Below are positions 6,846-61,356 of a stretch of DNA of 64,000 nucleotides, piece by piece; within the stretch, counting starts at the first letter, position 1; each line of letters opens with the position of its first letter. The notes below the pieces were generated by a model. The model was not told where the DNA came from. It made no database searches and saw only the letters and a program-made list of their open reading frames with translations. Position numbers and translations under genes: made by a program. The DNA is taken from the NCBI GenBank assembly GCA_963920705.1, contig OY987227.1, forward strand, positions 27,509,935-27,573,934, read 5' to 3'. The stretch comes from Odiellus spinosus (Eukaryota > Arthropoda > Arachnida > Opiliones > Phalangiidae).

Positions 6846-7183
6846 CAGAAGCCGATGAAACCCTCCTTTGAAGTCTACTACTCTAATGTTCCATATAGCG
6901 CTCCTCTCTGTATGGGTGAAATTCCCAATTTTACGAGATCGGAGGGGTCCTACTTCATACCCCCCTGTCAACGCAAAATTGGAAATTCTCTCTCTCCACA
7001 AACGACGACGTTTTTTGACGAACTCCGAGGCTGCTAGAGATATTCGCTCGACAAACTCCCGCTCCGAAAATATCTACCGATAGGAGGCGAACAAATCGCG
7101 CTTTTTTGAAACTAATCCATACAGAGAGGGGTAGACAAGACCCGGGAGTAATAGACTTCAAAGGAGGGTTTCATCGGCTTCTG
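6846..7183 (+). mobile_element. CAGAAG-family MITE, copy 1
   Basis: A 338-bp element with terminal inverted repeats CAGAAGCCGATGAAACC extending to about 38 bp (through GAAGTCTA). Subterminal CTCTCTGTATGGGT blocks also lie in inverted orientation. The flanks are gCCATGT (6839-6845) and aCCATGT (7184-7190), a 7-bp duplication with one mismatch. The element stays open in several frames in every copy because it is short and closely conserved. Those frames are not treated as genes. Confidence 0.93.
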
Positions 7184-7717
7184 ACCATGTATATTAAATT
7201 ACAAAGAACAGGAGAATGGCGCGAGTCTTTCCCTTTATCTTTCTCGGGCTTTGATCCTTTGGGGTCGGGGTTCGATAGGAGGGTGGAGGAGTAAGTGGAA
7301 AATTGGGCAAGAAGAAAAAAAAACCAAGGCTGGAAATCAGTCGCTCATCAAGAAGAGGTTAAGAAAAAGAACGGCGCTATAGGCGCTAGTCCAACACACG
7401 CAGCCACGAGAGGTCGAGGCAAAACGAATAAAGAAAATATAGATAGACCTAGCTTGTATCAAGCAACTATGGTCACTAGGAGATGCCAAGAGGACAGGAA
7501 ATCCTATCTTATAGGTCCTGATTAGGTCATCTACTTACTTTCCTTACACTTTGTTGGGAATACAAGATACTTTTTTCCGCGCGCTGCAGGAACCCCAAAT
7601 AATGCCAATATATATATATATAGAATATATCCGTGTCGAGGATAACGTAGTTTGCGATGAAATACCCGAGGGGGTGGACAATTCGTTTTTTGTGTACACC
7701 TGAGTTAGAATTTTGAT

Positions 7718-7872
7718 GAGTTCGTTAGAGTTCACGCGAGTTCTTCGAGTTCCCAAGAATTCGCCAGAATTCTCGAAAATCTGCTAGATTTCTCATAAAA
7801 TTTATGAGAGTTCGCGTAAGCTCCAGAGAGTTCTCATGAGTTTCCAAGAGTTCGTGAAGTTCTGACGAGTTC
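7718..7872. repeat. 10-bp periodic GAGTTC array
   Basis: About sixteen decamers of the form GAGTTCNNNN. The GAG or its variant (GAA, AAG, GAT) falls at nearly exact 10-bp steps, for example 7718, 7728, 7738, 7747, 7757, 7767, 7808, 7818, 7828, 7838, 7848 and 7867. The hexamer is conserved much better than the spacer. Some units have GAATTC. The array is flanked by TGTGTACA on the left and TGTACACA on the right. Confidence 0.85.
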
Positions 7873-7884
7873 ATTTCCACTTGT

Positions 7885-10800
7885 ACACAGAGTTCCTTAA
7901 GTGTCAGCCCCCTCGGAAATGCCGAATTAGATACGAATGCCTTTTTGGATACTGTTTACGCTATATCATTATAATAACGAACCAAGGCAGACGCGCCCCG
8001 AGCAATAATAACTGGGCAACGCTACGTATTCAAACCCCCAGTTAGTTTCGCGAACCAGAATTTATCCTTAAGTCGACATATCATGACTTGGCTTTCTGCT
8101 CGTGTTGTCAGTTTGTGGTAGAAGATACAGGCTTTAAATTAAAGCAAAGATGCGTAGGAGAAACAGATCTTTCTTCGTTAATCGTTTCAGAACCTAAGTT
8201 TCGAGGGTGATTTAGCCATATGTTTGAAGAATACCGCCATTAGCATTGTACATATGTTATTATTATAAGTAGATAGCGCGGCGCTCGAGTCAAATGTCGA
8301 TGGTGCCGTCTTTGAGGAACTATACGGAGTAACTACGTCAGTACAGGGTAACAGCGCAGATGCTCAAACATTCAGTGTTGCCATTAAGTAGTTGCTCTCC
8401 AATTTGGGCGGTTTTCAATAAGCTTGAATACGCCCACTCCTATTAGCTTTTACAATAGAACCAAAGAAGTGAAAGAGGAGAATATGCAACACGGGGTTTA
8501 AAAGAAGAAAGATTAGCGCCCCATCTAAAAAAAATCAGAATATTAATAGACCATAACAAGCAGAAATCACTCTGATAAAAACTCCTTGTAATAACATATT
8601 TCTTTAATAATCACCAAACGTCGAGCGAAAAATATTTTTATTGGTGTTTTTATTTTTTGCCCACTAGTTTTGATAACAAATACTTATTTCGAACAATTTT
8701 AAGCCGTTTTCCATTGTGTTTTTTTTACATCAACTAAGGTTCTAAAAAATTATTGACCTTGACTTTCGAAATAATGGATCCACAGCTGAAAAAAACTCAT
8801 AATGGAAATTTTTCGAATTGATTTGTGAGCCTACGGATTAAGTTAAAAATTATTCAATTTTCTGGCTGAAGGCGTAGGTGGAGGACCGCTAGTTAACGTC
8901 TTTAATTTAAGCCTTCAATTTAAATTATTTAAGCAGTATAAATTTAGGTTAAAGTTCGATATTTATTAGAATAAATCTTTATTTTCCTAATTTTTAAGGT
9001 GCTAAAAGACGTTTCGATTCTTAACGGGTTTTGTGGATCGGCGATATCGCGCGTGTGGACAGTAATACTGCGCCAACTGTGAACATATTGTGCCTGTTTT
9101 TTTGGATACCACAGTTTTCGAAGATCATCTGGTGATAGGACTGTGTTCAAATTGGATTCAACTACGGTAGTTCGGAACACCAATTAAGTGGATTTCGATT
9201 GCCACGTGAGTTAATTTTAATTATAATTTATTTCTATTTGGAAGAACTAGGCGTTAAGCCTTTGTTTTCATAGCCGTGACCAGCAAGTAGATGTTGGTCA
9301 AATAGTTTAGACAATTATTGTTTTTAATTTATTATTATTATTACTTCGTCATTTTTCACAAAATATTTCCCTTTACGAGTACTCTTAGCTATAAATTTGG
9401 GTTAAAAGGTCGCCAGGGCAATTTCGTAAATGGGGGATCCCCTATTTTTACAAGTTTTTGTCGTTTGTGGCAGCAAATTGGATGGAGAACACGATTCCGT
9501 CAAAGTGTTTTCGCTGCAAATGATTTTATATATATGCTAAAATCCCATATGCGCGCAGTCTCAAATTTTATTCATTTACAATAATTGCTTTAAAATTATT
9601 ATTATTATTATTTAGAAAAGTAATCCGCGTTACTCGTAAGCATTGTTGAAAATAAAAACAATTGACCAACTATAGACCTATTATCTCCCACATACCTTTA
9701 GAGATAACCGATAATGGGAGCCTTATCTATATAATACGATGTTATCTAATATTTTACACGCAATTATATTTCGCTAACACTCAATCGATGTTATTAATTA
9801 TGTCAGTAATAAGTAATTAATAGGTTCGTGGCTTTGATTTAATTGCATAATACAATGTTTTATTCATTGTTCTTGTTAAAATTCCGTCTCCCTATTTTAT
9901 CGCCAACATACATTACAACAATCATTACTTATCTAGGACTCAAAGTTACATATGACCCAAGTTAAATATATAAAATAATAATTCCATACTAACTAAACTC
10001 ATACTCTGATCAAAACTCGCTGCAGATTCTGGATGAATAAATGAAAATATTTCGGGGGAGAGTGATAGTCAATACAATTGAAGATTGCAGCGGGCGCGAA
10101 CCTGTTATTCCATCTATTTCTACGCCCTTTATTCGATAGGGAGGAAAATAAGTATAGTTTTGCGCCTGTTGCAAACTCGGTTTGTTTTTACGTGATACGG
10201 ATAATAGATAGAGTCGTATAAACAGGAGCGGTCATTTCTCGTTTCTTAACATTAAAGTCTCCCCACTCTCAATACATATACCCTCGGTCATTTTCTTCAG
10301 ACTCCGCCATCTTCACGAATATCGACATCCCTAAAGACTCTTTCACTCTCGTTCGAGGTGACTTCGTTAATAGAGTAGAAACCGCGAATAGCGTGGAATC
10401 ATAACATCATGTTAAGGACAATGTTCAATTATCAGTTGGAAAAAGGTGAAAATATATTTCCCCTTCTAGACATTTTGCCTTTTTAGTCGAGTAGGGTGGC
10501 TTACGACAGGCACCTTTTCTAGCTCAGTTTCCTTTCCACTTGGTCACACCATGCCGCCCAATTTATATACATCATTTCGCGATTAATGGTACATAAATTA
10601 ATGTTGCGAAGTTCATATTAAATTAATCAAAAATATTTTAAAGTGCGTAAAAAATCATTAAAGGGAGGGTGAAGAAACAATTTTGTTTGTTAGTTTTTCA
10701 TTATTGATTGGTCTTCTAAAAGAAAGACATATTTTGTACTAGAATATTCGGGAAATCTCTCTGAATTGTACAAAACATTACAAACCTGGTTTGCCATAGA

Positions 10801-12118: not shown

Positions 12119-12125
12119 ATGACAT

Positions 12126-12462
12126 CAGAAGCCGATGAAACCCTCCTTTGAAGTCTATTACTCCCGGGTCTTGTCTACCCCTCTCTGTATGGGTTATTCT
12201 CAAAAGGCGCGATCCGTACGCCTCCTAACGGTAGATGTTTTCGGAGCGGGAGTTCGTCGAGCGAATATCTCTAGCAGCCTCGGAGTTCGTCCAAAAAACG
12301 TCGTCGTTTGTGGAGAGAGAGAATTTCCAATTTTCAGTAGACAGGGGGGATGAAGTAGGACCCCTTCTAACTCGTAAAATTGGGAATTTTACCCATACAG
12401 AGAGGAGCGCTATATGGAACATTGGAGTAGTAGACTTCAAAGGAGGGTTTCATCGGCTTCTG
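12126..12462 (-). mobile_element. CAGAAG-family MITE, copy 2 (7-bp TSD)
   Basis: A 337-bp copy in opposite orientation to copy 1. It is flanked by perfect ATGACAT direct repeats (12119-12125 and 12463-12469). Both termini, CAGAAGCCGATGAAACC and its reverse complement, are intact. It is nearly identical to the copies at 21541 and 59979, implying recent spread. Confidence 0.95.
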
Positions 12463-12892
12463 ATGACATGGTAATGTAATTCTTTGTCGGACATACTTGG
12501 TCCTATTAATTTCACGAGTGTGGTGGCTGTTTAGTCGGAAGTTAGATTTTTGATCAGCGTTACTAAAGGCACATCCCTCCTCTAAAATACACAGAAATTT
12601 AAATACATATCATATTTTGTGACTATTACACTTATTTTAGAACTAGCTTCCTGACACATTAACGCCTAAATAATAACGAGAGTGACTTGTCAACCACATG
12701 TGTAAACGCGGCTTCGTAACGTGTTGTAGCCAACGAGATCTGACTTTATATATTACATAGTTGTATGCCCATCCTTTCGTTTCCTCTTTTAGCTGCGCGC
12801 CAAAATCGGATCTTAAAGGGTTAGGGACTCCTAAATTAATTGAATTTATATTTTAACTATATTCTTAACGGATCAAAAAAACACAGTAGCTA

Positions 12893-17401: not shown

Positions 17402-18641
17402 TGAAATTTGGATTTAGTTGGTGACTCTTTAGCTTAAAATTAACGTCGGCAGCGACGAAATATATCCTACTTTTGGGACTCTTAGACATAGATTTTAACT
17501 TAATATTAAATTAACTGTGGGTCATCCACATTTGACGTAACTAATTTAAAATTAATATGAGCCTCCTGGGATTAGTGATAAGGTACTTGTATAGAGTCAC
17601 CTTTTTCTATTTTTAGTTTTAAGTAGGGCTCCCCTCTAATTATTTAACCAAGGAGTCTCGAGGATATTTTTAAAGGTTCAATGCGTGTTCATTCCCGCCC
17701 TTTCTCATCAACATTTTCAACCGTCGCTGGATTCTTCAGTGGTGTTTTTTGCCGAATTGGTTAATTCCTTTTTCGGTTATGCGTAGAACTGTTGAACTCT
17801 GGTTTGGGGGTTCGTCCATTAATGGGGGACGAAGAGTCCCCCGTTTCTTGCGCGAAGCGCGGTGGAGGTTAGCTTCTTTGTTAGGGTTAAACTGTAATGT
17901 CCTTTTGCATCTAGGTTGACTGCTGCGGGGGATCCAAGAGAAAGGGCGCAACGCTTGAGTTCAATCAATTGCGTGGGAGATCGTAAACCTCGAGACTTCC
18001 CAAATTAGGCCCGCTTATTTTAGGATACCGAGCGCAATATAGATTCTTGACCAAACTAGGGTCGCGACGCGTTGGTCACGAATGACTTGAGCGAGCGGTA
18101 TCATTTTATTTTCACAGTGTATGTTTCCAGATCTTCGGGGGAATTAAATAAATAACCCCCAAATTGGTCGGGTTTTTTTTTACTTCCGAGGTCTAGTAGC
18201 GTCCCTAACGTGAACGTTGCTCGTAGCGATAGTTAAAATAATCACGGTCAAATTTGACATTATGTTTAGGGAACTCGGAAGGTTTTTTTTTTGGCTTCAA
18301 TAATTAAGTTTACTAACCACACCCTAGAAATAAGCTTACCAGGCGACACTACCTATGTCGCGGTTAGTCCCCTTCGCCCGCATAGCTGTCCTCCCAATGG
18401 ACCGACAGTTCCGTTCGACAGACTCGAATACCGCCAAACTGATAAAAAAACTAGCCCGAAGGCGCTTTTCCCAATGGACCGAAAACCGCCAAACGGATAA
18501 AAGAAACTAGCCGAAGTCGCTTTTCCCAATGGACCGAAAACCGCTTAAACGAAAAAGGGAACCGGCGTTTTCCCCCATAAATAATATGTTGTGAATAAAG
18601 CCTTACGGTTTTCTCTATCTTATTTCCCTATGTATTGTTAG

Positions 18642-18671
18642 TTAGGTTAGGTTAGGTTAGGTTAGGTTAGG
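18642..18671 (+). repeat. Interstitial (TTAGG)6
   Basis: Six perfect TTAGG pentamers, the ancestral arthropod telomere unit, at an internal position within the foldback. It is too short to indicate a chromosome end. Confidence 0.97.
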
Positions 18672-18844
18672 TCAATTAATTTGAGGGCGTTTTCGGCAAT
18701 AATTTGTCTACTAGGGCTATCGACAAATAGGAATACATTTTTTGAACTTTACACTTTTGTGAAATTTCATTTTTTAATAATAGTTTATTAAAAAAATGTT
18801 TATTTAACATTTTTAATTCAATCTCGGCAAATATGAGCAAGTTC

Positions 18845-18941: not shown

Positions 18942-20460
18942 TCGGTCCAATGGGCCGGCAGCCCCGCATACGTTAGGGTTAAGGTTTACTAACCCTTGAC
19001 CTCGTAGTCATAATTATGACGTCGTGGTCGAGAAATTTACTAATTTATTTTTGTGGATAAACGTGTAGATTCGCGCTCAAAATAATCTTGTTTCAAGATA
19101 CAAAGTAAATTGAAATAATTAGATCTTTCTTCGTTGAAATGCTGCTATTACATTAATGTTGTTGACCAAATTTTTGTGTACTTTCGAGTTTCGAGTAGAT
19201 TTTCCATCTAAGCCTGCTTTTATTATAGCCTTTTTAATTTTTCTTGGCCGAAGTACGGAAGCCATTGAAGATCATCTTCAGTCCAAATCATTTGAATTTA
19301 TTAGCACGTACTAAGGTTTAAGCTTCCCACGAGTTTTTTAAACCTGCCATTGAGTTTCCTGGTAGCTTAAAGGGACCAGAAAACCCTGTTTTCAAAATGG
19401 CTATTTCTTCTAAATTTAGTTAGATTGGGTCGCTTGAAACGAATCTCCAACGACCTCCATAGACTCTCACTCCTTGGAAAACCGATCATGTTGTAAGCTT
19501 TTTTATTTATATATTTCAATGTTTTGCCAAGTTTTTGTAGGTTTCATTTTCAAGGTACTTTCTAGTTAAACAAATAAACGGTACTAGTTTTAAAAGAGCG
19601 CTCATTAGTCGCCCTTCTTACTGCGAAACGCTAGAAAACAGTCGTCAAGGGGATCAAAAATTGTTACTTTTTACGCTAGGAGTCCCTCGTTAGCTCTCTT
19701 CACCGTATTTTTGAGAAATATTTAGGCAAGACGTCAAGAATATACCCGCTTAAGAATGACCTCATTGAGACTAAAAAGCTTCGCGGGGAAGGAAGATTTA
19801 AGGGTTCAGGAGGGGATTCTAAGGATTGGGGAAGCGCTGATTTAATCTTTGGGGCGCCGGGCATTTTTCAATTCGGAAATCTCATTTATCTCGTCCAGGA
19901 AAAAAAAAAAAAAAAGGAAGAATACTTTTAATTAGAGAGAAATGTGAATAAACTGAGAAATACTCTTCCGACGCTCCAATCCGAGCTTTTAAAGAAAAGG
20001 GGAAAGGAACCTTGGGTTCGGATCAATAGGTCGAAGTAAAAACTCGAGGCGATCAAGCGGGAGAAATAAAGTAAGGCTTTTATCTATATGTAGGATGTAT
20101 TATTTCAATTAAAAGAAATGCAAGCGGCTTAGCAGCTTAGACGATATACCATACTCGCTTATATATTTTTATCCGAGGGGAAATAAGGATTTTTAAATAT
20201 GGCTTTTGAGGATTTTTGAGAGATTTTAAAATTTGAAAAATCTTCTGAGAGGTTTTGGGATATAAATTTTAATTGTACGAGATTTGAAAAGTGTCCCATC
20301 CCTCAGAGAATAAACCAATTGTGACAGCCTCACTTTAAAATTGTAAATCTATTCCACTAGGAATTAGCATCACACGCTAAAGTATACGCCCCTTTTATTT
20401 ATTTAAATCGCAGTAAGCTTCTGTAAATTCGTATAGCCTGGACTCTATGATAAGTTTGTT

Positions 20461-20797
20461 CAGAATTAGATGAAACCCTCCTTTGAAGTCTACTACTCTA
20501 ATGTTCGATATAGCGCTCCTCTCTGTATGGGTAAAATTCCCAATTTTACGAGATCGGAGGGGTCCTACTTCATCCCCCCTGTCTACGGAAAATTGGAAAT
20601 TCTCTCTCTCCACAAACGACGACGTTTTTTGGACGAACTCCGAGGCTGCTAGAGATATTCGCTCGACGAGCTCCCGCTCCGAAAACATCTACCGTTAGGA
20701 GGCGTACGAATCGCGCTTTTTGAAACTAACCCATACAGAGAGGGGTAAACAAGACCCGGGAATAATAGACTTCAAAGGAGGGTTTCATCGGCTTCTG
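20461..20797 (+). mobile_element. CAGAAG-family MITE, copy 3 (7-bp TSD)
   Basis: A 337-bp copy with perfect GTTTGTT duplications (20454-20460 and 20798-20804). The left terminus is slightly diverged (CAGAATTAGATGAAACC) and the right terminus is intact. It lies about 0.7 kb from copy 4 in the same orientation. Confidence 0.95.
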
Positions 20798-21540
20798 GTT
20801 TGTTGTATATATTGATAGTTCTATTTCATGTACGTACCGACTTCAAGCGTCTATTCATATTTCATTCTTAAAATTTAGACTCCAGAAGATTAAAAATTAT
20901 CAAATACGGTAATTACAACTAGTTCAAAATCTCGGGTCGTTTTGCCTCACAGGAGAGCGTAAATCCTAGTATAATTTATATCAGTTTCCTTTCGCTTACT
21001 ATATGTTTATGTATTAAAAAAGAGTGAGCGTGTTTCTCGAATTAACGCTCTAAGATATAAATTAGAAGCTGAGGTATAAGGGAGCTGTCAGCTATATAGG
21101 TATAGCCCACGTTTTCCTCGTCTGATAATTCCTTCCTCCTAATAGGATTATTCTTCGTCGTGTTTCATTACCGGCGTGGAACTTTAATAATACTGAAAAG
21201 AGTCTAAGGCCCACTCTAAAAGGGAGAAGGCATCGGGTAACGTTACTTAGAAACGGGGCGGGCCGGGGTAAAGGTCTGTCGCGCACACGATCCATTTGAT
21301 TCTCATCTCCGGTACCAAAATTCAATTGTTTTTAATTAACATCAAATATTTGTAAGATACAATTTAAATTAAGACTCCATGACTTATTCAGTGCTGAATA
21401 ACTAATATAGAATTTTAATCATCGCCATGTCGCTTCTTTTAATTGAAAAACTTAAACCGTACAAAAGCTCCCTTTTCTCATTTTTGGCGAGTTACATTTT
21501 ATGTCATTAGATGGATGAAATTTGGGAATTTCAGTGTCGA

Positions 21541-21877
21541 CAGAAGCCGATGAAACCCTCCTTTGAAGTCTACTACTCCAATGTTCCATATAGCGCTCCT
21601 CTCTGTATGGGTAAAATTCCCAATTTTACGAGTTAGAAGGGGTCCTACTTCATCCCCCCTGTCTACGGAAAATTGGAAATTCTCTCTCTCCACAAACGAC
21701 GACGTTTTTTGGACGAACTCCGAGGCTGCTAGAGATATTCGCTGGACGAACTCCCGCTCCAAAAACATCTACCGTTAGGAGGCGTACGAATCGCGCTTTT
21801 TGAGAATAACCCATACAGAGAGGGGTAGACAAGACCCGGGAGTAATAGACTTCAAAGGAGGGTTTCATTGGCTTCTG
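21541..21877 (+). mobile_element. CAGAAG-family MITE, copy 4 (7-bp TSD)
   Basis: A 337-bp copy with perfect GTGTCGA duplications (21534-21540 and 21878-21884). The left terminus is intact and the right end has one change, giving CATTGG in place of CATCGG. Confidence 0.95.
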
Positions 21878-24800
21878 GTGTCGATTTTTTGTTGCAATAA
21901 CGAAGGAAATGCTCTCGGGTAAACATAAAGTCACCACTTTAAATTTACAAATAATTCGCCAAAAATTATGCTAAGTCACGATCACAATATTTTGTTTGAA
22001 GCGGTTCAAATTTCGTTTTAATTCTGAAATGAGATATCTTTTAAGAAACACAATTCCAATGTGCGCGTGCCGCGTTTGAAGCACCTATATACTGGCTTAA
22101 AGATAAACTTCATTTTGGGGTTTGGGCGTGACAAAATTTTTCATGTCCAATATGACGTCATAAGTAATGGAAATATGACTGTTTCAAAATGTCTAATGTT
22201 AACTCCGTTTATGCTTAACTTGGTCTGACCGTCCAACTGACCATCTCGCACTCGTATTAGAGTGTACTAGAAGCTCTAATTTTATCAGCAAATATACCTA
22301 AGGCGGTTGGGATTAATTCGTCCATATTGCGAACCGGGCGGCAAGACCTTACCTTTGGTACAATTCCCCTAATATAGTCAATATAAGGCCATTAACGAGA
22401 AAATCTCATTAGTTCACGCTTCATTTTCTACACCCGATCTTCGCCTCTGTATTCCTCTTTCAACCCTACTCTTCCGTACCACTCGCTCGCCTTAATATAA
22501 GATGGTTAAGAGTTTCCAATTACCGAAAATTTTCTCGGGGTTTGTAACGAGAGAAGCCGATCATTAACAGAAGGAAAAGACGCGCGTCCTAACGATCGAA
22601 AAGCTTCAACCTTCTTCCAGCCTCTCGAAACCTCATCAAAATACCCTCTATACCAGTTTTCTTCTTAAAAGAAAATAAAAAAAAATCCAACTACGCAAAC
22701 GGGTTGACAAACAGCTTTAGCAGTTGCCGAAATAGGCGTAAAACCTCTAGAGAGACACCTATCTGTCCTCATCTTTGTTTTTTTTCCTTCTACAACTTTT
22801 TTTAACTTGAACTATAGAGCAAAAACGTGGTAGTTCGATTTGTCTCGAGGAATACTAACCATCGCCCCTTGTATCAAGTGTAATTAAGGTTCAGAAAATA
22901 ATTAAACCATTGCCGTGTGAGCGTAATAATAACTAAGGCTCTTGTAGCGATACCGAGCCATTCCAGAAATAATCGTGCTAGAGAAACCATTTCATAGCCA
23001 CAAGATTTCGGGTTTTCATTCCTAAAATCAGAAACTAATATTAAACAAGAAATCAGTCAAGAGAGCCGTTCTGTAACTTTGCCCTTATTAACGCCTATCG
23101 ATTTGAGCAGTAACGGGTAAAGCGACTACTATTTAGTTGGTGCCAAGCAAAATTTTGGTAGGGCGAGCCAATCAGTCCCCTTCCTAACAATAGTTGCTAT
23201 CATAGAAGAGGAGGAGGACGTCATCTACGTCATAGCTTGTAAAGCTCATTGCGCTCGTGAGCACCGAGCATTTCTTAAGGTTATTCTTTTCTATATCCGT
23301 GCCAGCCCTCAAGGTCGCATCTCTTCCGACTTCTGTACCGTCTGGCTACTAGCGAATTTATGAAAACGGAAATAACTGCCCCGTATAACTTTAACGCCAC
23401 GTGACTTCGTGACGTAGTTAGCAACATTCAAACAAAATGTCTCTACCAGAAATTCTTTTATAATATCAACTATTTAGCTCCTAACAATAGCCAACCCAAA
23501 ATATTAGCTAGTCCTCAGCAAACTTTAGGTAGAACCAAGCGTACTCGACCCTGTTCTCTGAGGACGGGCCTGAAAATAAATCTGGGTGTAATGATGACAG
23601 ACAACCTCTCGGGTAGCGCAAGCTGAAGGAAAGCGTCGTGCTGAAAAATTCTGCTTGACCGATTTCATGTTTAATATCAGTTTCTGTACAAAACTAATCT
23701 AACGTGAGTATGTCTCGCATCGAAGTTAAATTCCTTGAATTTTAATGAACAATTTTAACGAAACATTTTAGAGGAATGGTTCAATACAATAATCTGCATA
23801 ATTTTAACGATAATATTTTTAAATTTCCAATCAACACCGACGTTAGAGACTTCTCTGAGTTACAATTTTTTTGCGCTGTAGCGTATCGATAAAGACAGGC
23901 CTTCTTTTCGTCTCCCGCTCATCTTCTTCTCGTTTTCATCTTCTCCGTTCATTTCAAGCTAAGATGGGGAGATGTTTCGGAAAGGGGTAGGTCGGAATTT
24001 TAAATCGATCACGAAGCATCCTTTAGAAAACTCTACGAAGAATGTTGGTATATCTTTCTTTTGTGTCGAAGAGACTTCATCCCCCTCTTTCCCTCTTACT
24101 TCATCCTCCTCGTCTTTCCGCTTCCTTCAACCTTATTCTCTTGTATAGAGCCAATCGGAGCGAGAGCAATTAAATGTAAATGCGTCACGCCGATCCTCTT
24201 TCTTAGCTTTTATTTCCTCTCTCTCCCCTACTTTTTTTTTTTCATCTTCACTTTTGGGATGAAGAAAACTTGGAGAGTAACGTCTTCTCTCCCAGGAGTG
24301 TGCCTAAATAACGGAAAAAGTGGATGGTTTCACCTCGGAGAAAGAAGAAATGGAGTAGAAATGAAAGGTAGAAATTGATATAGTTGTAAAAAACCTCCCC
24401 TTTAGAGTCGTGGATGACTTTTTTTTTTTTATATGCAGCCCCTTGATGAAAAAAAGTAAAACTTAATAACCTCTTTTGGCGAGTTTTATTCATATTTTGT
24501 AAGCTTCTGTATATATCCTATACTTTGCTATTATTATTATATTTTATCCTTTTTACTGTTTTTCTACCACTGGCCTGATGTTGACTTCTTAGACAGGGAT
24601 ATTTACAAGTTGGTTCAACTTAAACTATTAGTCCGGTTAATCGTTAATATTACTATAGTCTATAGATGGCAGCAGCTATCGGGGCTGAACAAAACGAAGC
24701 CAATATCGAGGAAAAGTCCAAATCACTCGAGCCAGACAGGGGTGATGACTTTTTTGGCTATTTTTAAGTGATGGGTTAGTACGTTTACCTGGAACTTTCC

Positions 24801-25807: not shown

Positions 25808-25960
25808 TGGGGAGAATGCAATCTAATAACTATAGTGATTTTTATATCTATTACTTATCGTTTAAATAGTCCTAACCCAACAGTAAAAAAATTAAAAACA
25901 AATATGAAATTAGAAATAAGTATAAAACTTACTATTTCAAAATAGGCTTAGCTGGATTCC
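25808..25960. mobile_element. TTAA-family MITE, left half only
   Basis: Resembles the left end of the complete copies: GGGAGAATGCAATCTAATAA, then a GTTTAAATAGTCCTAA block, then AAACTTACTATTTC and AATAGGCTTAG. It stops near the start of the internal palindrome. The right half is missing, and the copy is more diverged than the complete ones. Confidence 0.7.
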
Positions 25961-30283: not shown

Positions 30284-30575
30284 CAAGAAGGATCAGATAA
30301 GGAGATGAAAAGTGGGGCTGCGTTGAGTTAGAGAGAGAAGAGCCAACCTCCCACTCGGGTGGAAAGGGGGGATAGGAAATTCTCGAAGTAAACTGTTGTC
30401 ACGTGGTCGCTAGCTAGCGCGTCTCATAAAGGATTCGTTTTACCCACGTGACAACAATTTACCACGAAGCATCTCTACCCCCGTCTGTCCCCCGTTCTCC
30501 CAGAGTGGGAGTTTAGGCCGACGCAGTAGGAGCCGCGCCGTTCCCACTTTTCCTCTCCTTATCTGATCCTTCTTG
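30284..30575. mobile_element. CAAGAAG-family MITE, copy 2 (7-bp TSD)
   Basis: A 292-bp copy with perfect AAGGAGT duplications (30277-30283 and 30576-30582). The termini CAAGAAGGATCAGATAAGG and their reverse complement are intact. It is closely similar to the copy at 4134, mainly differing in the central linker, where this one carries GCTAGCTAGCGCG. Confidence 0.95.
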
Positions 30576-36411: not shown

Positions 36412-36715
36412 AAGAAGTAGATGAAACCCTCCTTTGAAGTCTACTACTCTAATGTTCGATATAGCGCTCCTCTCTGTATGGGTAAAATTCCCAATTTTAC
36501 GAGATCGGAGGGGTCCTACTTCATCCCCCCTGTCTACGGAAAATTGGAAATTCTCTCTCTTCACAAACGACGACGTTTTTTTGACGGACTCCCGCTCCGA
36601 AAATATCTACCGTTAGGAGGCGTACGAATCGCGCTTTTTGAAACTAACCCATACAGAGAGGGGTAGACAAGACCAGGGAGTGATAGACTTCAAAGGAGGG
36701 TTTCATCGGCTTCTG
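36412..36715 (+). mobile_element. CAGAAG-family MITE, copy 5 (7-bp TSD)
   Basis: A 304-bp copy with perfect TATACAG duplications (36405-36411 and 36716-36722). The left terminus has changed to AAGAAGTAGATGAAACC. An internal segment of about 33 bp, including GAGGCTGCTAGAGATATTCG, is deleted relative to other copies. It lies about 440 bp upstream of the first codon of IR gene 1. Confidence 0.94.
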
Positions 36716-37953: not shown

Positions 37954-38381
37954 AGGGAGAATGCAACCTAATTACAAGTGATTTTTTTATCGATTCCTTA
38001 TCATTTAAATAGGCCTAATCCACCGATAAAAAGTTTACAATACAAATATTAAACTAGAAATAAATTTAAAACTTACCCAGAAAGTAGGCTTATTCATGGA
38101 GATCCTGAATCGCGTCCGTGTAAGGTCTAGCGACCAATGAGTAAAGGCCCGTCGTTCACGCGAGATCTCCACGAGACTTACGTCGCGCGCGATCGGTCGC
38201 TAGACCTTACACGCGAGGAAATCAGGAGCTCCATGAATCCCACTAAGCCTATTTTCAGGGTAAGTTTTAAATTTATTTCTAGTTTAATATTTGTTTGTAA
38301 ATTTTTTAAATAGTGGATTAGGCCTATTTAAACAATAAGGAATCGATAAAAAATCACTTGTTGTTAGGTTGCATCCTCCCT
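37954..38381. mobile_element. TTAA-family MITE, copy 2 (complete)
   Basis: A 428-bp copy between TTAA at 37950-37953 and 38382-38385, with AGGGAGAATGCAACCTAA ends. The internal palindrome is well preserved (GTGTAAGGTCTAGCGACCAA and its complement). It sits about 0.3 kb downstream of the stop codon of IR gene 2, between the two receptor genes. Confidence 0.93.
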
Positions 38382-38708
38382 TTAAGTAATACATGTATTA
38401 GTTTAAGCGAGTACGACTGTACTATCTACAATACCCCTCTTCAGTGTTATATCGGGTTGAAATTGAAATAGATTGAACATCTAGGTTATAGTTACTAGTG
38501 TAGGTAATACTATATGCCTAGTGTAGGTTATTCTGAATTAACCTGCCAATAAGAGTTGTGGCCGATAAGTCTTGTTCGGACTACCAAGAAAATTGGATAT
38601 ATGAAATGTAATATTACAATTTATATTAAATAACTCTCCAATTCAGGGAGTTTACTTTGCCAATTCAGGCCAGCGGCTTTAATCTCGTTAAAAATTACTT
38701 CATGAATG

Positions 38709-41700
38709 TCAGTGTCGAGTTTGGCGCGGAACGCGACTCGTTTTTCTCGATAACATTTCGATGGTCTTAATGATTGCCGCCAGTACGAGTCCAGAAATCC
38801 AAAGAAACATGGCGAAGGCGAACGCTTTTAAGGGCAGGGCTTCGGGTTCGTTTTCTTTCGACCCTTTTGGCTCCTCGAAACAGGCGCGATGAACCCAAAC
38901 TTCAAAGTCCAATGAACGCAGAAATATTCCCGTCTCGAACAAAGAAAATGCCCTAGAAAACGTTAAAATTTGTCACTTTACACCCGGAGTCACTGCTTTG
39001 TAAACGGAGAAGTAATTTTCCATTGAAAAAAACATTTTTTCTTTGGACTTTGAGTACACAATTACGACTATTATCTCGAACCACCAAATAAGGGACTCAA
39101 AAATCATAATAGGGACTAAGGTTTAGATGTTAGCAACGCCTGTATAGTGGCGACATCAGGAAATTTATCTCCTCTAACAAATCAGGGTTTGAATCCCATG
39201 ATCGCACTGTTTTTCGTCTTACGTAATACCACAAGTAAATAATCCTTCAAGTTTACAACCGGACACATTTCCGGTAGCGTCTTGTTTGTAAGAGTTCAAG
39301 TATTGTTTACTCTACAGACAAACTACTCAGCCTCGCTGCCATTCCGTACAAATTTCGGAATACTTTAGGTGAAACCATTGACCGAAAGAATCGTACTGGC
39401 TTCATCGAAGCCTACAGAATGCCTTGTAAACTTGAATTATGATTTACCTGTGGTAATACACCTTATAGCTAGGATTTCTTAATTCAGTTGACTGATTTAT
39501 TAGCGCGAACCAACGTATAGCCCGATATAGTCTGCCTTAATTAATTTTACAGTGTTATGAAATTATTTTACTAGGTTTTAAGAAATTCTATTCTCCTTAA
39601 GTCTGACCTCTAGGTAATGATTTGAAGAGTGGACCTATTTTAAGGACCACGTGGCGCTTGGGCTTGAAGACACTATAGGTGGCGTTTTGTACGCGTGACC
39701 GTTTCATAAAGCAAAATTAAGACGGACGGTATAGTCCTCATATTTGGAGATCTGAGATAATTCTAACACTCGTTTGAAAGGTTTCTGGTGCTTGTGGGCG
39801 AGTTTTTTTCGCATGGGAAAGGCGATGTTAACTTCGAAGACTCGTTCAGGAAGGGCCCGGATTTTGTGACTCCTCGAGTCGCACTCCATTAAATATCCCA
39901 ACGTAGCCTGAATAAAAGTTTCCGGGAAAATTATGAAATTGCTTCCCTTATGCAAATCATCAAACGCTCCCAGGATGTCGAAATCCGCCAACGCACTCAA
40001 CCCCCGCGTATCCCGGGCTTGTCGGTAAATATCGCGACGAACCTCGCTTTCAGACATCTATAAAGAATGGCGATTAAGTACAGCGCGAAATTTTAAAACG
40101 AATAGCACCACGATACGCGGCTATGACTGGTCAAAAATTTAATTGAAACGAAAACTGTTCCGCTTAGATAGATGGAGCTGAACCAATAAAAATATTCCAT
40201 TATTCACTTGTAAAGCTTCGGGGACGGGCGAATCTTCCATTACGAAGATCTGCGATTGGGGAAAATACTGCCTGACGTCACTGAGAGTTTCTAAGTAGAC
40301 TGGCTCAGGGGGGAGGGTCAGAACGGACAGTATCCCACTCGAGAAGGCCGCTGATATCCAAAAGGACTGCAATGAACAGACCAACAGAAACAGACGAGCT
40401 CCGATTCCGAGACCAGCTTCTTCCTCAAAAGCTTAATAAGAAATTAAATTCCCAAATCGTAAAATCATTTTTTCGCGTGTTAGTATTACATTGGCGTAAG
40501 TTGATGATGATCAAATGATAGATTCGGAGGGACCAGTTATTGACCAGATTAGATCGAATTGTACTTGTAGTGAATTCAATCAAATAGTATATCAAGGTCC
40601 ACGTAATTGAGAGAATGAACAATGAAAAAAAATATGCCATCCACAACTACATTATATTAACGAGAATTATCATCTTATGCTTGTCATTATTAGAGTCATT
40701 TTACCTCCTTAGAGAATATTTGGATAGGAGAAATTTCGTTTCTTTTCCATTTTATTGGTTCATCCGCGGACATCTAGAAAGTAAAATAAAAAATCAAAAA
40801 ATCTGAGTATATTGAACATAAGAGTGATCCCGAGGTAAGGTTTCAATTGCGCAGTTTCCTTTTGCGCAGTTTTTCATTTGCGCAGTTATCCATTTCCGCA
40901 GTTTCCATTTGCGTTTTTTTTCATTTGCGCAGTGTTCATTTGCAGGTTAGGTTATGTTATGTTTCGTTAGGTTAGGTTAATCACTCGAACTAGCCTGCCC
41001 CTCTTGTTATATTACTAGTTAGATTAGATTAGGTTAGGTTAGTTAATCACTCGAACTAGCCTGTCCCTCTTGTTTACAGCTCGAATGACAAACTGCGCAA
41101 ATGGGAACCGCGCAAATGGAAATGCTCAAATGGGAAACCGCGCAAATGGCTACTGCGCAAATAAAAATGCGCAAGTGGGAAACTGCGCAAGCGGACGCAA
41201 ACCGATCCCGAATAGAGGTTTTCATACCATTATCCAATTATCAGCGAGCATAGTAGTGGTGAATTCCAAGTAAGGCAGATTATTATAACCCGGGGTGTAA
41301 GTGTTGAAACCCAAATCCCCTTCTCCCTGCGTTACACCAAAAAACAAGAAATATTTTCATGAACAAAATATTAGAATAGAGCTGACTGATGGGTTGAAAA
41401 TGAGACCATTAACTCCAATAATTGGACCATAAATAACATAGTTACGGATATTACGATGATTAAATTTGAGAAATTATTCTATTGGGTGATGTCGATAACA
41501 TCTGATTATCACTAAAATTAACTAGTTAAAAAAATTTCAACAAATCTTAAGCTTATTCGCCGCCCAATCGAAAAAACAAGTCTTTGAAACGATTTCGTGT
41601 CGAAATCAAGCGCGCGCTTCTCAATTAACATCGAGGTATCTCCATTACCCCCAGCCCCAAATCAATTGATCTCGAATCTATTTATTAAAAGAATTCTTGT

Positions 41701-42195: not shown

Positions 42196-43336
42196 TAATA
42201 ATACATAAAATTATGAAAGTGTTAAATTAACAATTATAATGTTTACGTTTAATCGTAAATAATCGCAAGATTAGCGGGTACTTTATTAATTATCTGAGCC
42301 CTAGTCATAGACTACTTCTTAATTTATTTATTTTTGACTTTACTTGTAATTCATTTTCTGAATAATGGCGTTGGCGTAGGTGGAGAAGAGGCCGGTCATT
42401 ATCACTTTGCCATTTTCATCCTGCCCAAAGTCCAACCAGTATGGTATCTAAAATCAAAATCGTTAGATTAGGATTAAATTTTTCGTGGGATTATATTTTT
42501 GTGGGATTAAAGCTCGCGAGATTAAATTTGCGTGGGATTAAAGCTCGCGAGATTAAATTTGCGTGGGATTAAAGCTCACGAGATTAAATTTGCGTGGGAT
42601 TAAAGCTCGCGAGATTAAATTTGCGTGGGATTAAAGCTCGCGAGATTAAATTTGCGTGGGATTAAAGCTCGCGAGATCAAATTTGCGTGGGATTAAAGCT
42701 CGCGAGATTAAATTTGCGTGGGATTAAAGCTCGCGAGATCAAATTTGCGTGGGATTAAAGCTCGCGAGATTAAATTTGCGTGGGATTAAAGCTCGCGAGA
42801 TTAAATTTGCGTGGGATTAAAGCTCGCGAGATTAAATTTGCGTGGGATTAAAGCTCGCGAGATTAAATTTGCGTGGGATTAAAGCTCGCGAGATTAAATT
42901 TGCGTGGGATTAAAGCTCGCGAGATTAAATTTGCGTGGGATTAAAGCTCGCGGGATTAAATTTGCGTGGGATTAAAGCTCGCGGGATTAAATTTGCGTGG
43001 GATTAAAGCTCGCGGGATTAAATTTGCGTGGGATTAAAGCTCGCGAGATTAAATTTTCGTGGGATTAAAGCTCGCGAGATTAAATTTGCGTGGGATTAAA
43101 GCTCGCGAGATTAAATTTGCGTGGGATTAAAGCTCGCGAGATTAAATTTGCGTGGGATTAAAGCTCGCGAGATTAAATTTGCGTGGGATTAAAGCTCGCG
43201 AGATTAAATTTGCGTGGGATTAAAGCTCGCGAGATTAAATTTTCGTTGCAATAAGGTCCTCTATTTTTTGGGTGAAAAATTGTATTTTCCCATACGCAAT
43301 ACTTACTGGCATTACGCAATAAGTTAGACTTTCCAT
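38709..43336 (-). CDS. Divergent ionotropic receptor, gene 2
   Basis: Tandem paralogue of gene 1, a predicted IR cation channel. Exons: 43336-43307, 42447-42344, 41837-41744, 41326-41228, 40773-40705, 40646-40490, 40431-40208, 40057-39768, 38952-38709. Total 1311 nt, 436 residues, one uninterrupted frame. All intron phases equal those of gene 1, and exons 2-7 have identical lengths. S1 about 8-130 (GDYGHIYG, GYVGYLIRE); M1 133-156; M3 196-226 (FSSGILSVLTLPP); M4 about 396-419. About three quarters of exon 7 residues match gene 1 by eye. The Arg at the ligand site of gene 1 is Asn91 here. As in gene 1, no signal peptide is visible; the protein starts MESLTYC. Introns are longer: intron 1 holds a 31-bp minisatellite, intron 2 a 30-base poly-T run and intron 4 a foldback. 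All splice sites are GT-AG. Confidence 0.88.
40845..41206. repeat. TTAGG-centred foldback, GCGCAAAT arms
   Basis: The left arm (40845-40945) is about seven copies of a 15-16 bp unit containing ATTTGCGCAGTTTCC. The right arm (41092-41206) is about eight units in inverted orientation with ACTGCGCAAATGGGAA. The centre holds two direct copies of a module: TTAGG-like repeats, then TTAATCACTCGAACTAGCCTG and CCCTCTTGTT. It lies wholly in intron 4 of IR gene 2, between exons at 41228 and 40773. Gene 1 lacks it; its corresponding intron is only 60 bp. Confidence 0.85.
42163..42192. repeat. Poly-T run (30 bases)
   Basis: Thirty uninterrupted T on the plus strand, so poly-A in the sense of the host gene, within intron 2 of IR gene 2. 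No retroposed body is recognisable beside it. Confidence 0.95.
42484..43245. repeat. 31-bp minisatellite in intron 1 of IR gene 2
   Basis: Each unit is GTGGGATTAAAGCTCGC followed by GAGATTAAATTTGC. From the unit at 42501 to the last at 43214 there are exactly 23 steps of 31 bp, so 24 full units with no length change, plus a degenerate leading half unit. Each unit contains the palindrome CTCGCGAG and is itself two related halves (GGGATTAAA and GAGATTAAA). Variants cluster: three adjacent units have GCGGGATTAAA and two have GAGATCAAA. Confidence 0.97.
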
Positions 43337-44077
43337 TTCCAAATTTCTAGAAAGTGTCTTGGCGAAATCCACCTAGCTCGTCGGGCGAAACTCGAATGTT
43401 TTTTTCATATTGTCATATTAATCGATACGTCATGAAATATATTTGCTTAATGAAACGCGATATAAAAAATTCGTTTAATTATGAAGAAAAAGTACTTGCG
43501 ATCTATATTACGTGACTTTATTTATATTAGGTTTGCTAGTTTGTTTCTGTTGTTGTTTGAACATTAACCTACTTTCTTTATTATCTTTAAAGTTCATTGT
43601 ACACGCTTCACTGTCAAAACTGACATTACTTACAATAATTAACTGGATATGATATATATAAATATCTGTTAAGTTCAAAACTAAGAGCGAGATAGATAAG
43701 AGTAGGGCTCGGTATTATAATTTATTAAGTCGTGATGTTCAGAATATTATAATCAATTCCATCTTGAGTTGACAGCACACGCAAAATATTCGAGCGAAAT
43801 AACAATGTTTTAGTTTCTAGCAGTTTTTTGATTATCCTACTCCATTGAAATCCAAATATAAGATTATTTTAAATTTTCGAACAGTGTTAAGTTACAAAAG
43901 AGAAATCTTTAAGGTTGGCATCATACGCGTAATTAGGTAACCCGTTTTTTTTCTAAATCATTTGGTAATTTAGAGGTAGAACAAGGGAGCCCACTTTCGC
44001 GCACGCTGCCAACTCCAAATGAAATAAACTATACATAAATATATCTTTTTAATTACAGAATAGAAACTAAATAAAAT

Positions 44078-44358
44078 CAAGGAGGATCAGAGAAGGAGAG
44101 GAAATGTGGGGACGGCGCGGTTCCTACTGCGTCGGCCTAAACTCCCACTCTGGGAGAACGGGGGTAGAGACGTTTCGTGGTAAAATGTTGTCGCGTGGGT
44201 AAAACGAATCCTTTATGAGACGCGCTAGCTAGCGACCACGTGACAACAGTTTACCTCGAGAATTTCCTATCCCCCCTTTCCACCCGAGTGGGAGGTTGGC
44301 TCTTCTCTCTCTAACTCAACGCAGCCCCACATTTCCTCTCCTTCTCTGATCCTCCTTG
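44078..44358. mobile_element. CAAGAAG-family MITE, copy 3 (7-bp TSD)
   Basis: A 281-bp copy, inverted relative to the other two, with perfect ATAAAAT duplications (44071-44077 and 44359-44365). Both termini carry the same change (CAAGGAGGATCAG and its complement). It begins about 25 bp beyond the stop codon of the small secreted-protein gene, so it probably lies in that gene's 3' untranslated region. Confidence 0.94.
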
Positions 44359-44383
44359 ATAAAATTAAACAAAATTTTCGTGA

Positions 44384-55685: not shown

Positions 55686-57573
55686 CGTGTATCTGAAAAA
55701 TGAACAACAAAACTACTGACAAATTTCGCCTAGCAGTCTTCGGATACGGGAATTATGGACGTAACCCCTTCCAACATCATAGCCCCTTTTTACCTAATCG
55801 TACCGTGTAATAAATTGACAAATGTGTAAAATTTTAACTATAAGCACTTAAAAAACCTCTTCAAGGTATGCGCATAATCGTTGATTGCCCGTAGAAAGTA
55901 AATGGAAGGCGACTGCCTATTCTTTCCAAATAAAGTTATACGGAGTAGGCAGCGCGGGGGAATGCGTCGTTATTATAAGATGGCTGAGGGAAGATTCTTC
56001 TATTCTCGTTTCATTCCTCGTGTAGCTTCGCTTCTCCTTAGTGACAGCTGTCGAGGGAAAGTGTCTAATGGAATATATTTTTGCTACTTTTTCTTCCGAG
56101 ACGATCGCCAAGGCGCGTGCTCGTCCGCTCTTCTTACGGCTTGTCACCTCGAAGAAAATTTTCGAGGGCCACTAAACCATTAGGCTCTCGGACGCCTATT
56201 TTTTGCCTCTCTTTTATATTTCCTAGTAATAGTAGAATCCACCACCTCTCGTAAATAGTCCAGTAGAATGTTTTTAGTTCGTTGCCACCTCTTTCCATTT
56301 TTAAGATTATCTCCCGCAACAAACCTTGAATATTTACAGATGATTGCTTAACATTGATAGGAGACGCAACCGTTAGATAATTAACCTATACGTCTGTTTT
56401 TCTTAATTTATTATCATAATTACTATAACCATAAAGTTTTCTAGTTTCAAGGTCCGTAATTTAAATATTTCCCTGTATATTATTTTTATTTTAAAACCTG
56501 TATGAAATACAGAATATTTATTTATTCCCATGCACGTTGTTTCAATGCGTTCGTGACATTACTTGTACGAGGGTATGTGGGTTTTGCTACTCCTAGCTAT
56601 TACCTAAGGGTCTCCTACTGAAATATATATATATTTCTATCTTCTCCCATTTCCGACCTAAGTTAGTCTCTCCAAATGGGGAGGAGAAGGAGAATTAGGG
56701 TTTAATGTCCCAAAGAGAAGTCTATCTAGCAACGGAATTAGTTGCGAGTCTATTCTGCCACCCCACGTTATAAGAACTGTCGTTAACTGTTTTTTTACCG
56801 AGCTGTTTTTTTTTTTTTTTTTTTTAGAACTTGCAGGTGTCCCTGGCTGCTACGCTACGCTAGCTACCATTTCTTAATGCGTTATGAGGGAGATCTTACT
56901 AATGTCTCTTTAGATTTCTTAGCGAGAAACGTATATAAAATAGGAACTGGGTCATTGTTTGCTCGGTCCTCGTGCGGTAAAAATAGTTTTTGTCGATTTA
57001 TATATTAGAAAGAGATTGAGGGATAGTACTTGAACGTGTCCAAGTACTTGAAGCTATTTCTTTAAAGGAAATAAAGCCAACACTTGTCCAAAACTGAAAA
57101 TAAGTTCGCTTTTCCTCAAACTATGTAGTGGGTTTTGGAAATCGCGTAGAAATTAGTTTTGTGTATGCATTTATACCTTAAATAATATAGAAAAAACTCT
57201 CTCCGCGCCCGCAAAGATAAATTGTATTTGTAGCTAGTCTGGATACGTTTTTTACGATGAACCCGAAACTTTTTTGATACACTTCAGAATACTTAATATA
57301 TGCAGACTATGACCTTACATCTTTCAGGTGGTGCGGAAATGGGTTGCTAAGAACGAAATATCATCGATCTTCGAAATTTAAAATGTCTACTTATATAGGC
57401 TTTTCCACGAACCTCAAAAGTAGACTTAGCGATTGTCAAGCGTTGCCCATTCGGGGAGGGTCTTCTTGTGGACTTACCATCTTGTTAAACTATGCTAAGT
57501 GATAAAATATTCAATTAGAAGGCTATAGAGACTTTTTAGTTGCGCGTACCATTTTTGGGTGAAAACTCTTTAA

Positions 57574-58006
57574 AGGGTGGATGCAACCTAACAACAAGTG
57601 ATTTTTTATCGATTCCTTATCGTTTAAATAGGCCTAATCCACTATTTAAAAAATTTACAAACAAATATTAAACTAGGAATAAATTTAAAACTTACCCTGA
57701 AAATAGGCTTAGTGGGATTCATGGAGCTCCTGATTTCCTCGCGTGTAAGGTCTAGCGACCAATCGCGCGCGACGTAAGTCTCCTGGAGATCTCGCGTGAA
57801 CGACGGGCCTTCGCTCATTGGTCGCTAGACCTTACACGGACGCGATTCAGGATCTCCATGAATCCCGCTAAGCCTATTTTCAGGGTAAGTTTTAAATTTA
57901 TTTCTAGTTTAATATTTGTATTGTAAACTTTTTATCGGTGGATTAGGCCTATTTAAACGATAAGGAATCGATAAAAAATCACTTGTAATTAGGTTGCATT
58001 CTCCCT
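57574..58006. mobile_element. TTAA-family MITE, copy 3 (complete)
   Basis: A 433-bp copy between TTAA at 57570-57573 and 58007-58010, in the opposite orientation to the copy at 37954. Ends are AGGGTGGATGCAACCTAA and its near complement. The palindrome and both CTATTTTCAGGGTAAGTTTT-type blocks are intact. Confidence 0.93.
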
Positions 58007-58627
58007 TTAACTAAGAAAAGTAGCATTGAAACAATCTATTGTGGTACTCGCGATTATACGCGTATCTCCAAAAGAAGGCCATTGTAAATCTAATTTAAGT
58101 GAGACGCGTATGCGCTTGCTAAGTTCTGTTTTCGCTATTAGTCCACTAAATTTATCGTTAAAGAGCGGTAGGTGACGACGTAATTGATCGCGTCATGCCT
58201 CGCGATGATTCATTTACCCTCGTTTCTCGATACTTAGGGTTTATTCTTGTTTGTTTTTTTCTTTCTATTCTTACGGGCTAATATTCATTTCTCACCCCTT
58301 TTGACCATTTCTGGCAGGTCTCGCTCTCTCTCCGCCTTATTTCGATAACGATTTTCAATAAAAGCCTATGAAATATAGGATGCCTTCTTCCACTTTATTG
58401 GCTCAATAAATTGGCGCCTTCGTCTAGGCCGAGAGGAGTCAAAAATTCAAGGGAAGATCAAACGACAATATTTTATTGGTTAAGCTTTGAAAGGATTCGA
58501 AATTTCTTTAGAGAATCTTTGCTGGCTTGAACATTGGGTTAATGGCGATATTCCCCGTAATTATGCCACTGTCGTAAAACGGAGGAGTTAGTAATTAAGC
58601 CTTTTATATAATGGACGTTTATAATAA

Positions 58628-59280: not shown

Positions 59281-59978
59281 TTATACCTCGCCTCTCCTCA
59301 TTCTGTCGCGCGAAGGGAGGCGCGAGGAGGAATGAATTCCTCCGTTACATCGACTTGACCCTGTCGTCAGAAAAACCTGTCATTCTATCGCCCCGACCCC
59401 CAAAAAAAGAAGCTTTTCCCGGTCCCCTTTTCGATATTAAAGCGTTTCGGACAAGTTCGCTCACTTCTCGCGCCCTAACGCTTCGATTGAAGATGGTGCG
59501 TGTGAGGCCAAAGAGGCTACGGAGGAACTTTTGTTCGAGAGCGAGTTTGCAAGAACTACTTTTAATTGATCGAGGTATAACATCACCCGTAAGTCCGCCA
59601 CAAGTCCCTCTTTTATTCCAAGCTACTTTCGAACCAAAGTGTAGGATAGTCTCGACGACCCGCGCTAGGTCCGTCAGAGAGGAAGGTTTTTTTTCGGCTT
59701 GATCGATCGATCCTTGAAGGCGACCACCGCGAAAATTCGGACGAGAAACGTGTTTAAAGAAGCTTGTTCCCCTTTTTTCTCTCTTTTCGAACCTTCTCTT
59801 TCTTTCCGAAGAAACTATATAAAGCTTCTTTAGGATGCTAGCGAGATTCTTAACTTTTTAGTTGTTTCTAGTTCGCTTTCTCCTTTCGAGCGAGGAATAT
59901 TTTTTGCTCTCGAACCTCTTTTTATTTAAAGGGAGGCTGAAGAAGGACACAAAAAGATTTTAAAGTTATCAATAACAT

Positions 59979-60315
59979 CAGAAGCCGATGAAACCCTCCC
60001 TTGAAGTCTACTACTCCAATGTTCCATATAGTGCTCCTCTCTGTATGGGTAAAATTCCCAATTTTACGAGTTAGAAGGGGTCCTACTTCATCCCCCCTGT
60101 CTACGGAAAATTGGAAATTCTCTCTCTCCACAAACGACGACGTTTTTTGGACGAACTCCAAGGCTGCTAGAGATATTCGCTCGACGAGCTCCCGCTCCGA
60201 AAATATCTACCGTTTGGAGGCGTACGAATCGCGCCTTTTGAGAATAACCCATACAGAGAGGGGTAGACAAGACCCCGGAGTAATAGACTTCAAAGGAGGG
60301 TTTCATCGGCTTCTG
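59979..60315 (+). mobile_element. CAGAAG-family MITE, copy 6 (7-bp TSD)
   Basis: A 337-bp copy with perfect ATAACAT duplications (59972-59978 and 60316-60322) and intact termini. It is nearly identical to copies 2 and 4. Confidence 0.95.
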
Positions 60316-60781
60316 ATAACATTTTTTATACAAAAAAAAGTCAGTAATTGACCCCTAAATATTCCAGTTTGACCTTTCCAAAACGGTTGAAAAAGGTTTC
60401 AAATTATTTAGTGTGAACACGGTTTAGGTTTTGCGACGATCCCTTTGAAATTATATCCATTCTCCCTTTATATAAAGGAAGGAATATGTGAACAACGAAT
60501 CGATCGGTTTGAACCGTGATTCTTGCAGCCGCTGTTTAAATAAAGGGGGCGTGACGTACTAGGGAAGCAATACACTCGATTGTTTCTCACGTATCTGCTT
60601 CGTGTTTTTTCTACAATTTTTAATTTTGGAATGTTAACATATTGACCCGCTGCTTTACTTTGACTCCACTCTTTCATACTTTTAAATAACTTTGCAATTT
60701 TATGAAACAAGAATACTTTTAAAGAAGGTTCGGGATATTTTGAGTTTATTTAAATTAATATCGAAATGTTACATTTTAGCA

Positions 60782-60955
60782 TCGCCAGGAATCGTTTTAA
60801 GCGTCACGTGTTCACGCATTATCTTTATAAATCGATTTATTGTAGCTTCATCTATCGGTTGTTGAAACCAAATCAGTCTGAAACATGATTTCAGTGGATT
60901 TGAATCGTTTTAAATGCGTGATTGATGTGAACAAAGCTTTATTGTAGCGTATTTG
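60782..60955. mobile_element. TAAGC-family element, fragment
   Basis: Shares AATCGTTTTAAGCGTCACG, TGTTCACG and TATAAATCGATTTAT with 3058-3300, then TATCGGTTGTTGAAACCA. It carries TAGCTTCATCTATC, also seen in the copy at 28130. Ends are unclear. Confidence 0.6.
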
Positions 60956-61021
60956 TGAGCTGACAAGGTTAGTGATGGAAATCCCAACCGAAAGGTTAAT
61001 TGCGTTTTCCACACATTCCAC

Positions 61022-61356
61022 CAGAAGCCGATGAAACCCTCCTTTGAAGTCTATTACTCCCGGGTCTTGTCTACCCCTCTCTGTATGGGTTAGTTTCAAA
61101 AAGCGAGATTCGTACGCCTCCTAACGGTATATATTTTCGGAGCGGGAGTTCGTCGAGCGAATATCTCTAGCAGCCTCGGAGTTCGTCAAAAAACGTCGTC
61201 GTTTGTGGAGAGAGAGAATTTCCAATTTTCCGTAGACAGGGGGATGAAGTAGGACCCCTTCTAACTCGTAAAATTGGGAAATTTACCCATACAGAGAGGA
61301 GCGCTATATGGAACATTGGAGTAGTAGACTTCAAAGGAGGGTTTCATCGGCTTCTG
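61022..61356 (-). mobile_element. CAGAAG-family MITE, copy 7 (7-bp TSD)
   Basis: A 335-bp copy with perfect ATTCCAC duplications (61015-61021 and 61357-61363), in opposite orientation to copy 6, which ends about 0.7 kb to its left. Both termini are intact. Confidence 0.95.

Follow-up and report, generated by a model that had tools for sequence, protein, structure and literature searches.

Among transposons of the P superfamily, the target site duplication (TSD) made at insertion has been described at two lengths, on the one hand 8 bp, for the P elements of Drosophila melanogaster (PMC7776569) and Anopheles gambiae (PMC1562414), and on the other hand 7 bp, found at 274 of 279 sites for 1360 (Hoppel) of D. 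melanogaster (PMC3276498) and mostly for Galileo (PMC4168063). A cut in one strand, 17 nt into the element, is according to a review one of the features that set the Drosophila P transposase apart (PMC7776569). In flies, the junctions left by P excision keep the TSDs together with parts of the 17-nt tails, joined through short overlaps (e.g., AT or TA) and 2-8 nt of microhomology, some of them with filler (PMC2895639). In the present work, two families of miniature inverted-repeat transposable elements (MITEs), both short and non-coding, were analysed from a 64,000-nt stretch of the Odiellus spinosus genome (contig C3, positions 27509935-27573934; 443 Mb in 286 contigs), hereafter called the window, namely (i) family A, with CAGAAG tips, and (ii) family B, with CAAGAAG tips. 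Very likely, A and B are non-autonomous elements moved in trans by P-superfamily transposases (THAP / P-element-type) making 7-bp duplications, a reading that is firmer for B than for A.

Respective to the closest described systems, A and B share with 1360 the 7-bp TSD but have other ends, reside in another host, and are short and non-coding, while Galileo differs by its long repetitive ends and its tips (PMC4168063, PMC3573991). The P-MITEs of A. gambiae resemble A and B in their high copy number and in the dependence on P transposase that is proposed for A and B, the P masters there having terminal inverted repeats of ~30 bp, but exhibit 8-bp TSDs and have known P masters with common ends (PMC1562414). 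No account of families A and B, or of scars used as below, was found among the papers listed for P-superfamily 7-bp TSDs, P-derived MITEs and excision footprints, nor by tip sequence, the species-specific literature lying outside this search.

In the window, the original prediction had reported perfect 7-bp direct flanks at nine of ten complete insertions, and reading the flanks bears this out, i.e., nine are perfect at exactly 7 bp and the tenth has one mismatch (Table 1). Window copies are 93-98% identical pairwise in A and 93-95% in B. With up to two mismatches, the 12-base A tip matches the window 15 times against 2.67 expected from shuffles, and the 13-base B tip 6 times against 1.66, a count of 6 being reached in one of 100 shuffles. 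The terminal inverted repeats extend over ~34 bp in B and ~38 bp in A (94-97% identity), thus attaining the ~30 bp characteristic of the P superfamily.

Table 1. Insertions of families A and B in the window, and P elements delimited elsewhere in the genome
Feature	Location	Strand	Length	TSD	TSD positions	Remarks
Family B MITE	4134..4427	+	294 bp	TACATAT	4127-4133 / 4428-4434	beyond the interval of the original prediction
Family A MITE	6846..7183	+	338 bp	GCCATGT / ACCATGT (6/7 match)	6839-6845 / 7184-7190	
Family A MITE	12126..12462	- (relative to copy 6846)	337 bp	ATGACAT	12119-12125 / 12463-12469	
Family A MITE	20461..20797	+	337 bp	GTTTGTT	20454-20460 / 20798-20804	variant left tip, start CAGAATTAG
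Family A MITE	21541..21877	+	337 bp	GTGTCGA	21534-21540 / 21878-21884	deviant end CATTGGCTTCTG
Family B MITE	30284..30575	+	292 bp	AAGGAGT	30277-30283 / 30576-30582	
Family A MITE	36412..36715	+	304 bp	TATACAG	36405-36411 / 36716-36722	internally shortened; deviant start AAGAAGTAG
Family B MITE	44078..44358	-	281 bp	ATAAAAT	44071-44077 / 44359-44365	variant tips CAAGGAGG...CCTCCTTG
Family A MITE	59979..60315	+	337 bp	ATAACAT	59972-59978 / 60316-60322	
Family A MITE	61022..61356	-	335 bp	ATTCCAC	61015-61021 / 61357-61363	
P element	L039 641-5221			GTTTATA (7 bp)		
P element	L041 966-5105			ATCCGAC (7 bp)		
P element	C1:7167009-7170788			TTTGAAG (7 bp)		801-aa open frame matching THAP, RNase H and GTP-binding models
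P element	contig C17			GATGTGAC (8 bp)		ends CATAG; delimited by eye

Over the whole genome, exact matches to the 17 outermost A bases mark 19,906 ends (9,910 + 9,996) and those to the 21 outermost B bases 3,236 ends (1,636 + 1,600), the reversed controls giving 0 in both cases; A ends are thus about six times as numerous as B ends, counted over tips of unequal length (17 against 21 bases). The copies are scattered over many contigs. Flanks could be read for 34 complete A copies, a sample biased towards the best-scoring ones and leaving out L001 (the window copy at 12126) and L049 (whose ends were unfit for the script), and of these 29 have perfect 7-bp TSDs, four have one mismatch and one matches over 6 bp only; the match stops at exactly 7 bp in 28, as one perfect copy sits in a short tandem where 10 bases also match. 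Among 15 B copies, those with imperfect tips being set aside, 14 are perfect at 7 bp and one has a single mismatch. The 7-bp length that had been predicted from the window accordingly holds for the copies sampled across the genome. Six of these B copies (L073, L074, L075, L077, L078 and L079, contig C1, 3.9-7.9 Mb) have a common TSD, GCTAGAT, the likely reading being one insertion carried in a duplicated or satellite-like segment, so that nine independent perfect B sites remain.

A natural empty site is provided by two duplicated segments of contig C1: TCACTAC occurs once in L153, and in L154 two TCACTAC units flank a 275-bp B copy. Of note, L154 contains a B tip-to-tip remnant (1501-1523) 131 bp apart from this complete copy (1655-1929), and L153 has the remnant without the copy. 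At another locus, L116, the end of a B copy is split by a sequence that contains a 231-residue gag-like open frame and is likely a retroelement.

Targets of both families are biased towards a palindrome. In A, T at base 2 or A at base 6 of the TSD accounts for 48 of 58 base observations, and in B for 10 of 16 (one site being counted from both strands), against an assumed ~0.32; three bases outside the TSD, T/A is found in 40/58 for A and 13/16 for B (one site again entered twice) against the same assumed value. The resulting A consensus, ~(G/A)TANTA(C/T), approaches the Galileo target, GTANTAC or GTATTAC, although the flanking motif of Galileo, AANGT/ACNTT, is unlike the T three bases outside A and B (PMC4168063, PMC3573991), and it is palindromic in the style of the 1360 target GTTNAAC (PMC3276498). 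Since palindromic targets are general for elements with terminal inverted repeats, this bias is weak evidence. It also bears on whether A and B are hAT-type MITEs with misjudged ends, as the tips start with CA(G) and the T and A at bases 2 and 6 resemble the hobo target nTnnnnAn (PMC3276498). A hAT assignment calls for 8-bp duplications, whereas 28 of 34 A copies stop at exactly 7 bp and the empty site is 7 bp long. Scars of hAT elements are not known to keep any terminal repeat. With 8-bp TSDs in 1,196 of 1,198 hobo sites (PMC3276498), a hAT origin is extremely improbable.

The P-type reading rests on 7-bp TSDs, one empty site, a palindromic target bias, P elements with 7-bp TSDs in the same genome and remnants in which two tips of a MITE face each other. 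As proposed, a P-type transposase would pair both ends of a MITE and insert it into an AT-rich palindromic target, the two strands of which are cut 7 bp apart. At excision, it would cut one strand at the element end and the other ~17 nt inside, which would leave ~17-nt 3' tails of the terminal repeat on the donor DNA; two such tails, joined directly, would give a scar of the form TSD-tip-tip-TSD. From these observations we infer the P transposase as the maker of both insertions and scars, together with the exact position of the cut and the P element that would supply the enzyme.

Searches for tip-to-tip remnants, spanning 19-35 nt in B and 18-35 nt in A, gave 65 and 28 of them, respectively, against a single match each for the reversed patterns. 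Among the 50 B remnants listed, one 23-nt sequence recurs 26 times on either strand (at least two of them being one duplicated locus), one of 28 nt five times and one of 30 nt three times, and no tip exceeds 16 nt in 48. All three B scars read with their flanks keep both 7-bp repeats, namely TCTTAAC for a duplicated pair and CCCTAAT for the third, hence two independent sites. When the annealing of two identical B tails was scored, the 23-nt product, i.e., the commonest scar, ranked first at every tail length from 15 to 30 nt, and the 28- and 30-nt products were both in the top five for tails of 16-18 nt. Filler joins are also present among the scars, as in P excision (PMC2895639).

Such remnants could alternatively be interior deletions by replication slippage in the hairpin formed by the inverted repeats, the MITEs themselves perhaps still being P-type by their TSDs. 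The 3-nt overlap at the commonest B junction is what slippage would give, and A junctions at 18-24 nt are also in its favour, but the recurrence of one identical 23-nt product and the likeness of the filler joins to those of P excision (PMC2895639) are not. Moreover, 24 B ends retain bases 8-21 but diverge beyond them (the control gave 3 matches), and only three of these ends are placed as large interior deletions, while 14 are small indels and seven could not be placed. Slippage is therefore considered distinctly unlikely, and excision by a P-type enzyme is preferred.

Several points nonetheless weigh against P-type mobilisation. In two of the 50 listed B scars, a tip of 18 or 21 nt may have been retained, the alternative reading being filler, and the predicted 18-nt B product falls outside the range searched for that family. 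The flanking context is known for three scars only. For A, with two mismatches allowed, nine of 28 scars have no more than 17 nt left of either tip, 12 have 18-24 nt left of one tip, and seven require filler or further changes; a former count by exact matching, which placed 23 of 28 within 17 nt, is replaced by this one. The comparison was made with Drosophila P junctions, which are laboratory repair events with 8-bp TSDs (PMC2895639, PMC7776569), whereas the scars here were read from an assembly and in A often go beyond 17 nt. One of the four P elements delimited here, on contig C17, has an 8-bp TSD. Finally, no THAP, P or other transposase gene was found between tips of the CAGAAGCCGATG or CAAGAAGGATCAG type in those stretches that were accessible to the search. 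Concerning the longer A tips, partial repair synthesis before joining, which has been described for P breaks in flies (PMC2895639), could by analogy account for them.

P transposases are abundant in this genome, where a PF21787 search gave 150 scored matches among 386 candidates and a THAP search 150 among 638; a GTP-binding domain is predicted by its model in some of the P transposases. Three of the four complete P elements delimited have 7-bp TSDs and one an 8-bp TSD, and none has the MITE tips (Table 1). The ends CGTTGCC, CGGTGCC and CACTACC belong to coding P elements. At the P-type loci L013, L014 and L016, inverted segments of ~600 bp flank the transposase domain on either side, which recalls the long ends of Galileo. 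Multi-copy THAP-coding repeats at L122/L129 and L123/L130 start with TTAAAGGG where the copies cease to match and are perhaps Kolobok elements with a THAP domain.

The original prediction had further proposed to look for a transposase gene bounded by ends of A or B, and none was encountered in the P and THAP stretches searched. The tip search, which allowed up to 3-5 mismatches and covered part of the P loci, revealed no partner around 30 P loci with 1.5-kb flanks, at four P loci read more widely, in 20 stretches downstream, at nine THAP loci, or in another 20 stretches, most of which lie upstream of P or THAP matches. Besides partial matches at chance level, it returned one exact A tip outside the L039 P element and, in L149, an A copy. 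On contig C17 a tip matched in part, but this match lies inside another P element, the one with CATAG ends and an 8-bp TSD, and was rejected as a partner end. Exclusion patterns, retaining the tip and demanding an interior unlike the MITEs, gave 24, 14, 205, 29 and 120 matches; by design these patterns catch ~24-56% of unrelated interiors, and 100 of the 205 and 100 of the 120 matches were listed. No transposase was present at the 16 places read, which were mostly MITEs with indels, a MITE beside a second MITE, or MITEs cut by other DNA, and a sequence recurring in much of the listed results of the 120-match pattern was discarded as an element end, as it reads as coding. A diverged A-like copy was traced over ~5 kb without its second end being found. 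Partner elements may be lost, rare, or beyond the stretches read.

This negative outcome, together with the 6-7 bp duplications made by Dada elements, speaks in favour of an undescribed or Dada-type transposase with a 7-bp stagger as the mobiliser of A and B. Dada elements prefer multicopy RNA genes, whereas the copies here are dispersed over many contigs. With P elements of 7-bp TSD present in the genome and B scars of P form, such an enzyme appears very unlikely. As such, the earlier proposal of an undescribed or little-known transposase stands in part: of the two candidates it named, the P type fits the evidence, and an undescribed enzyme is unneeded since 7 bp is known for the P superfamily from 1360 and Galileo and three P elements with this length occur here. 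Its argument that matching ends suggest one transposase for both families did not hold, as the likeness is within chance; with CA kept fixed, 971-1175 of 3000 shuffled tips were equally alike, so that no above-chance likeness extends past the first two bases. Tip likeness was accordingly dropped as evidence that one enzyme might serve both families.

A 7-bp duplication is in itself nothing unusual in the P superfamily. What the scars and the empty site add is a likely enzyme class for two large families of orphan MITEs, even where the partner element is missing. The same reading of scars might be applied to other orphan MITEs, and it gives access to junctions of P-type repair that arose naturally and not in laboratory experiments.

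Scars are also unequally distributed between the families, with 65 for 3,236 exact ends in B vs 28 for 19,906 in A, i.e., a rate ~14 times higher in B, as computed from unequal tip lengths and bounded scar sizes. Two B tails can pair through ATC-A-GAT, with one mismatch amid six base pairs; A tails can hardly anneal. The self-complementarity of the outer ~17 bases might thus steer how a break is healed, and thereby shape family size: it is proposed that A breaks would more often be refilled from the sister chromatid and the copy regained, hence more A ends and fewer A scars. As two families provide a correlation between tail annealing and scar rate and not a test, this proposal is held as rather unlikely; if true, P-type break repair would have left a natural record of itself in this genome.

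Other repeats occur in the window. A third palindromic MITE-like family is found at 2583-3040, 37950-38400 and 57570-58020, with relatives near 25834, 31722 and 55373; its ends, AGGGAGAATGCAACC / GGTTGCATNCTCCCT, are bordered by TTAA at either side in two of three copies read and nearly so in the third, which suggests a TTAA-type family, such as Kolobok or piggyBac. A tandem array with a 31-bp unit spans 42359-43371, and short interstitial repeats of the GGTTA/TTAGG type lie at 18631-18686 and 40946-41053.

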